Origin: Caminibacter pacificus
GTDB taxonomy: Bacteria; Campylobacterota; Campylobacteria; Campylobacterales; Nautiliaceae
DNA: 64,000 nt
NCBI RefSeq assembly: GCF_003752135.1
Contig: NZ_RJVK01000003.1
Coordinates: forward strand, 1 to 64,000
Reading direction: 5' to 3'
Shown piece by piece: positions 1,333-41,460 of the stretch. Numbering within the stretch: the first letter of the stretch is position 1; every line of letters starts with the position of its first letter. The translations under genes were made by a program, and so were the position numbers. The notes under the pieces were generated by a model that saw only the letters and a list, made by a program, of their open reading frames with translations, was not told where the DNA came from and searched no databases.

Positions 1333-1465
1333 ATTAAACAACCCGAAATAATTGCAAATTTTAATGGAAAAAAGCGTTAAAAAAAGCACACAAGCGCGCA
1401 GCGGTCCGGGCTTTTTAGCTTTTTTGTAATGGTCGAAATTTGCTCTCTTGTTGAGGGTGGTTAAT
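1333..1465 (+). repeat. Dispersed structured element, copy 1 (ncRNA-like)
   Basis: This 133-bp stretch recurs at 41253-41387. It folds end to end: 1333-1344 pairs with 1455-1465 (one bulge, one mismatch); 1347-1351 with 1448-1452; 1354-1362 with 1435-1443; 1368-1375 with 1418-1425; and 1381-1387 with 1410-1416. Between the first two helices 5'-GA-3' faces 5'-GA-3', which would form tandem G-A pairs. TTTTTT follows the closing helix, so plus-strand transcription with a terminator-like end is the better reading. Similarity to copy 2 fades into AT-rich flanks with GTGAAAT-type words at about 1290-1500. It matches no RNA family I recognise. It could be a small RNA, a 5' leader of the downstream genes, or a MITE-like repeat. 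Confidence 0.75.
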
Positions 1466-41098: not shown

Positions 41099-41252
41099 GA
41101 TAATTGATTATGTAAAGTAATATTTTCTTATTCATAAACGCTAAAGTGATGAAATAGGTAAAGAAGAGGAAGAGATGGGGAAAAGATATGATAACTATGA
41201 TGAAATAGTGAAATTTTGAGTTTGTGAATCAGTAAAATTAAAGATTTGTAAA

Positions 41253-41387
41253 ATTAAACAACCCGAAACAATTGCGAATTTCAATGGAAAAAAAGCGTTA
41301 AAAAAAAGCACTCAAGCTTGAAAAGGTCTGGGCTTTTTAGATTTTTTGTAATGGTCGAAATTTGCTCTCTTGTTGAGGGTGGTTAAT
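41253..41387 (+). repeat. Dispersed structured element, copy 2 (ncRNA-like)
   Basis: Second copy of the element at 1333-1465, in the roughly 420-bp gap between yfdX and the formate-dehydrogenase-like gene. Helices pair 41253-41264 with 41377-41387, AACAA with TTGTT, and 41274-41282 with 41357-41365. The poly-A/poly-U apical stem is kept, though one base next to it (C to A) loosens the outer part. The apical loop is quite different from copy 1 and contains a CAAGCTTG palindrome. TTTTTTT follows the closing helix. AT-rich flanks at about 41195-41250 and 41390-41440 have the same GTGAAAT-type words as copy 1. The rest of the gap (41099-41195) holds nothing else I can identify. Confidence 0.75.
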
Positions 41388-41460
41388 TTTTTTATATGAT
41401 GAATTAGTGAAATGGTAGGTTTATGAAATTACTACCGGAAAAAAAATGAAACCAAAGAAG

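Follow-up and report, generated by a model that had tools for sequence, protein, structure and literature searches.

Small non-coding elements with a covarying folded core, probably moved by an IS1-family transposase, in Nautiliaceae and related bacteria

The element at positions 1328-1470 and its copies in the Caminibacter pacificus genome

The window considered here, namely the 64,000 nucleotides that begin contig NZ_RJVK01000003.1 of Caminibacter pacificus, opens with the end of a CRISPR-like array (positions 1-336) of 36-bp repeats like TTTTCTACCTTCTTGGGTAGAAGGTTAATTGGAAAC, the last of which is degenerate, that runs off the start of the contig. Further on lies a plus-strand element at positions 1328-1470, with the stop codon of purU before it and a small reading frame followed by trmL after it. 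It comprises a core hairpin and the degenerate ends typical of copies in this genome. The element was recognized both by its BLAST copies and by a covariance-model match (G000:C3:1328-1470, E 1.3e-26, where G000 is the genome of the window).

Examination of the element from the outside inward reveals an outer arm, P1, formed by AAATTAAACAACCC (1328-1344), which stands where relatives have the terminal inverted repeat GGYACTGACTAAATAAAGYG, and by GGGTGGTTAATTTTTT (1455-1470). Next come the GA half of a tandem G.A/A.G internal loop (1345-1346, partner 1453-1454), a short helix (1347-1351 paired with 1448-1452) that reads AATAA in the window copy and AACAA in most copies, and helix P2, in which GCAAATTTT (1354-1362) pairs with AAATTTGC (1435-1443). 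Helix P3 (1369-1375) pairs with about 1418-1425 and covaries, with the pairings AAAAGC/GCTTTT, AAAGGC/GCCTTT and AAAGAC/GTCTTT being found in relatives. There follow a conserved asymmetric loop, GTTNA (1376-1380), which lies opposite a single A at 1417 and is identical in four bacterial families, and helix P4, in which AAAAAGCACA (1381-1390) pairs with about 1407-1416, combining an A-tract/T-tract with a covarying G-C part. All of these features are on the plus strand. An earlier, sequence-only reading of this DNA had described four nested helices together with opposed GA/GA dinucleotides. These are indeed present in the sequence, and their pairing is borne out comparatively, as detailed below. 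The innermost of the four (1368-1387/1410-1425) does pair, but not as one helix, since the consensus splits it into P3 and P4, with the GUUNA versus A loop between them. Folding of the window element as a single sequence yielded -36.1 kcal/mol (z -1.9), modestly better than shuffles. A search of the window against Rfam returned no matches above the gathering threshold, the best sub-threshold E being 2.2, in agreement with the earlier remark that no Rfam-type family has this layout.

A second copy of the element is found in the window at 41248-41392 on the plus strand (E 1e-50 and 91% identity by BLAST; coordinates from the covariance model), confirming the repeat that had been noticed 40 kb away. 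That description understated the extent of the repetition, with BLAST revealing 17 sites in the genome (E 1.8e-74 to 2.5e-7) and the covariance model adding an 18th, diverged copy (C5:125860). All of the copies in this genome lie between genes.

Most of these copies sit inside strand-specific arrays of an 8-bp unit, GTGAAATT. In the window, plus-strand tandem arrays of this type separate the element from the purU stop codon (1288-1312), lie on its other side (1476-1504) and accompany the second copy (41208-41227). The arrays, which are degenerate and contain TGA in all three frames, are located mostly between co-directional genes and, at about 17 of 20 loci (our own count), start a few to about 40 bases past a gene's stop codon, on that gene's strand. 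Arrays are also seen where no element is present, and they are nearly private to this genome (67 pattern hits, as compared to 0-1 in most relatives), with a GTGAAGTT version being found in one relative (G019).

Distribution among relatives and marks of mobility

Using a consensus query, the element was detected in 18 of 21 Nautiliaceae genomes, representing four of the five genera, while in the public genome collection, matches were found in contigs named Nautiliaceae and in one Campylobacterales MAG. A covariance model built from 39 copies was also run on 150 sampled genomes of the class. Strong matches, with E down to 1e-31, were obtained for a second family (in G031, G046, G048 and G053), along with 17 weaker copies in a genome of a third family (G159) and isolated copies or pairs in a fourth. 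Copies are hence found outside the genome of the window, both in its own family and in other Campylobacterota families. All 49 unique family copies for which both neighbors could be scored are intergenic, with the neighboring genes being oriented -- in 16 cases, ++ in 14, -+ in ten and +- in nine. Across the family, the copies share no common neighbor gene and assume no fixed orientation. No earlier description of the element, or of MITEs in Nautilia or Epsilonproteobacteria, was found in the open-access literature searched, and typical transposons were not reported in the N. profundicola genome paper (PMC2628731).

Outside the genome of the window, the ends of the element correspond to GGYACTGACTAAATA inverted repeats (n = 35 elements). 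Exact 8-bp target duplications flank 14 of these 35 elements, a count that rises to 16 when up to one mismatch is allowed. In a control in which the left and right flanks of different copies were compared, the exact 8-bp fraction was 0.0017 (0.17%). No exact duplications of 7 or 9 bp were found among the 35 elements. Most elements measure 137-160 bp, with deletion derivatives and size variants of 60-245 bp presenting the same ends.

A matching transposon was identified in G001, a genome from the same genus as that of the window. Here, six identical IS1-family elements (PF03400 over cut-off) end in GGCACTGACCTAAAA (GGCACTGAC...), with 8-bp duplications being seen in the five copies checked (AGTTACTG, AGAGTTAT, ATAATTTT, TATTAATA and GAGATGAG). 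These elements (L185, L189, L191, L193, L195 and L197) are 684 bp long, with two short reading frames that overlap at an A9 run; the group is otherwise poor in transposons, and these elements seem to have been active recently. The intact IS1 has only the first 9 bp of the MITE ends and the same duplication length. Also in G001, a broken copy of IS1 (L198) ends in TATTTAGTCAGTGCC, exactly the 15-bp end of the MITE. Unlike IS1, the element encodes no transposase, and no IS1 sequence was noticed in its interior. In G224, from another family, several insertion-sequence ends GGCACTGACTAAATA are found near contig ends.

The family thus presents terminal inverted repeats, a duplication of fixed length, the ends of an autonomous element and short, non-coding, dispersed intergenic copies, all features of MITEs. 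Given the GGYACTGACTAAATA ends, the 8-bp duplications and the IS1 end matches, the elements can be considered a MITE family, with an IS1-family transposase probably serving as the mobilizing partner. Of the three readings proposed from the sequence alone, the MITE-like hairpin is the one that these marks favor. Other partners were also considered. IS1595 was rejected, as none of the 21 family genomes contains PF12762. IS701/ISAba11 was considered in view of a fragment in G224 (L174) that initially scored as IS701, and was rejected as partner of the Nautiliaceae form, given the misfit of ISAba11-group ends and 5-bp duplications; the part of the L174 reading frame adjoining the end weakly resembles the IS1 C-terminus (E 0.04).

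In the genome of the window itself, no canonical end GGNACTGACTAAATA was found at one mismatch, nor was an IS1 transposase (PF03400), and no 8-bp target duplication was found at the window copies. Most copies in this genome end in AAAATTAAGC.../...GGTTAATTTT (ends also given as TGTAAAATTAAGC/GGTTAATTTT), without clear duplication. The window copy by itself thus presents neither canonical ends nor a duplication of its own, and is assigned to the MITEs through its relatives. The absence of canonical ends, clear duplications and IS1 counts against the IS1 explanation, which does not account for the amplification of the copies in this genome, as does the short 9-bp match of the intact IS1 of G001. 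Considering the family as a whole, it is likely that these sequences represent previously undescribed small non-coding mobile elements of vent bacteria, namely Nautiliaceae and their relatives, that are moved by borrowed transposases.

Covariation, conserved loops and a core found with other ends

When a structure of 51 pairs was considered over 39 distinct copies, 92% of the cells corresponded to standard pairs and 24 of the 51 pairs were seen to change on both sides. In total, 196 cells were changed on both sides, as compared to 69 +/- 7 upon shuffling (with none of 500 shuffles reaching 196) and 16-54 in slid controls. The arms therefore covary rather than change without regard to pairing, and the fold is real. 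Between subfamilies, the outer arm is rewritten with pairing being kept, as reflected in the combinations AATTAAGCAACCC/GGGTGGTTAATT, TAAATAAAGC/GCTTATTTA, ACAACAGATTAAAT/ATTTAATCTGTTGT and GACTAAATA/TATTTAGTC. At the same time, the tandem G.A/A.G mismatch is kept in 35 of the 39 copies and is never converted to standard pairs. A kink-turn was considered in view of the tandem G.A and rejected, as the consensus lacks a three-base bulge next to it. Two copies found in different genera (L071 and L056) have TTGCCCAG in place of TTGTTGAG on the 3' strand, such that pairing with GAAACAA is broken on one side only.

The strongest alternative to a selected fold is that the element is a palindromic MITE in which the arms are complementary only via DNA-level processes, such as template switching or cruciform-linked correction, with the fold having no function. 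Long imperfect palindromes in bacteria are known to be corrected in this manner, and the outer arms of the element indeed change fully between subfamilies yet always pair. The same process should, however, also erase internal loops, yet these are preserved, with the tandem G.A being kept as noted above and the GUUNA/A loop being kept across four families. Such passive upkeep of the palindrome is accordingly rated as rather unlikely.

The core of the element is also found with different ends. Copies in G159 present ACTGACCTTACGCAA ends and 5-bp duplications, exact in 6 of 13 cases (control 1.9%). Judging by end sequence and duplication length, these ends would be of the IS701/ISAba11 type. ISAba11 has 5-bp repeats (PMC7885321), and L184, an element of the ISAba11 group, ends in ACTCACCTTACGCA; the resemblance to the IS701 family and the ISAba11 group concerns the G159 MITE and not the window copy. 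The inner part of the G159 copies is homologous to the Nautiliaceae/G053 core, with a local alignment score of 33 versus 8 +/- 2 (0 of 3000) for shuffles that preserve structure and pair content. A homologous core is also present in G148 and G141 (z 7-10 versus the best references; for G159, G148 and G141 together, z 7-15 with the best references when compared to structure-preserving shuffles). When each group was folded separately, two helices and a five-base loop (GUUNA/GUUAA) opposite a single A were obtained. The tips of the core are exchangeable, with TTTGAGCGAAGCGAG, CCCGTAGGGCGC and AAGCGAAGCGG types being seen. Because a homologous core sits in MITE families with unrelated ends, the core looks to be under selection. 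Together with the covariation, this common core shows that folding of the single strand matters, and the fold itself is probably useful. Directly beside a MITE copy in G159, a second element (L227) has the ISAba11-like ends ACTGATGTTACGCAA.

Orthologous copies were also compared. At one site, the copies in the genome of the window (L015) and in G002 (L022) are 96% identical, as compared to 83.5% for the adjacent, mostly coding DNA (p 3e-5). Other orthologous pairs, including the cross-genus pair L014/L035, change at about the rate of neighboring coding DNA. Overall, this comparison offers moderate evidence for function.

The same observations bear on the possibility that the element is a structured non-coding RNA gene, encoding a trans-acting small RNA or a ribozyme-like molecule, that is multi-copy by chance and for which mobility is incidental. 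The strong covariation, the conserved internal loops, the core conserved between families and different ends, and the slow change at the one orthologous site would all be expected of such a gene. Still, exact 8-bp duplications and transposon ends argue otherwise, as do the absence of a common neighbor gene and of a fixed orientation, the pace of change of the other orthologous pairs and the lack of an Rfam match. Moreover, no promoter-like site was found above chance at the element, leaving the free-standing small RNA that had been proposed without promoter support. Such a gene is thus improbable. Of the earlier RNA proposal, what stands is that folding of the single strand matters, as covariation and the common core attest, whereas a dedicated small-RNA gene is unsupported.

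A conserved hairpin within a short, palindromic repeat between genes would similarly fit a REP/RAYT-type element, which a Y1 transposase moves in single-stranded form; such movement, however, leaves neither target duplications nor long terminal inverted repeats, both of which are present here, and this origin is very improbable. Most doubtful is a cis-regulatory role as leader of the trmL operon, as the plus-strand position upstream of the small reading frame and trmL had suggested, since other copies are found before or after unrelated genes, in every orientation and on either strand, the copy at 41.2 kb in the window has an unrelated context, and the dispersed copies refute this as a general function.

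A possible role for the core and a proposed mechanism

Between positions 1250 and 1560, two terminator-like sites (stem plus U-run) were detected, one per strand, as compared to 0.1 in shuffles, these being consensus matches only. In the main subfamily of the genome of the window, 10 of 12 copies follow a same-strand gene. Were the element purely a terminator, an excess of convergent neighbors would be expected. No such excess over the family is seen (10 -+ and 9 +- of 49), which argues against a pure terminator, and the orientation data alone lend that assignment no support.

A MITE moved by an IS1-type transposase and containing a selected folded core is likely to be the best explanation of the findings as a whole. 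In its full form, the element would be a non-autonomous MITE, about 140-155 bp in length, for which an IS1-family transposase acting in trans would recognize the GGYACTGACTAAATA terminal inverted repeats, move the element and leave 8-bp target duplications. Because the body is nearly all imperfect palindrome, either strand or a read-through transcript would fold into a single long hairpin in which the internal loops, namely the tandem G.A and GUUNA/A, are fixed. The central hairpin (P3, the loop, P4 and a U-tract on either strand) would be maintained by selection for folding, with the A-tract on one side and the T-tract on the other offering a terminator-like form on both strands. The core would most likely act as RNA, serving as a terminator-like or processing hairpin in read-through transcripts crossing the element, a role that would render intergenic insertions tolerable or useful. 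MITE transcripts that are cut by RNase III or RNase E, or that carry terminator-like sequences, are known (PMC10969869). In the genome of the window, where the IS1 partner and the canonical ends are gone, the surviving copies would have multiplied under new ends, for the most part within GTGAAATT arrays.

Bacterial MITEs, such as QMITE1 and QMITE2 of Coxiella burnetii (PMC5896051), MITEAba12 (PMC6382973) and others reviewed in PMC10969869, have much in common with this element, being small, AT-rich and intergenic, with inverted and direct repeats, no transposase and stem-loop transcripts. Indeed, some copies of QMITE1/QMITE2 are transcribed as small RNAs, and QMITE2 direct repeats are 7-9 bp long (PMC5896051). 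Unlike those MITEs, with which the comparison is by description only, the present element has helices that covary over many species, fixed loops and a core found with the ends of two transposase families. ERIC, Correia/NEMIS and BOX are also intergenic imperfect palindromes with RNase-cut transcripts, terminator- or riboswitch-like motifs having been discussed for some (PMC10969869). These are work-alikes only, set apart, according to their descriptions, by other hosts, ends and duplication length.

MITEs are usually taken to consist of two ends and the filler between them. In this family, it is the filler that is conserved, with a fold that covaries across species, such that one can ask by experiment whether selection acts on a bacterial MITE through its RNA. 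The covariance model and the probable transposase partner are, moreover, provided for a group with no such element in the literature searched. A bolder reading, offered tentatively and judged somewhat less than probable, is that the core (P3, GUUNA/A, an A/U-rich P4 and tips that can be exchanged) represents a novel structured module of nucleic acid with a function of its own, which it would probably exert as RNA. At least two unrelated sets of transposon ends (IS1-type with 8-bp and IS701-type with 5-bp duplications) would have carried this module in several Campylobacterota families, making it a passenger RNA that changes vehicles.

Two minor observations concern the wider set of loci. At several pairs of loci (L043/L067, L046/L085, L015/L052 and L007/L020), the same intergenic gap was apparently hit by independent insertions in different species, often in opposite orientation. 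In-place inversion at orthologous sites was considered for the first three pairs and rejected, as the insertion points seem to differ and independent insertions are simpler. Finally, L098, L103, L104, L115 and L117 are longer relatives, of about 145-215 bp, that share the ends but have another interior (ACAGCGTTGCGAAATTTAACGAAAATTTTGCG...), apparently representing a second MITE type with IS1-type ends.
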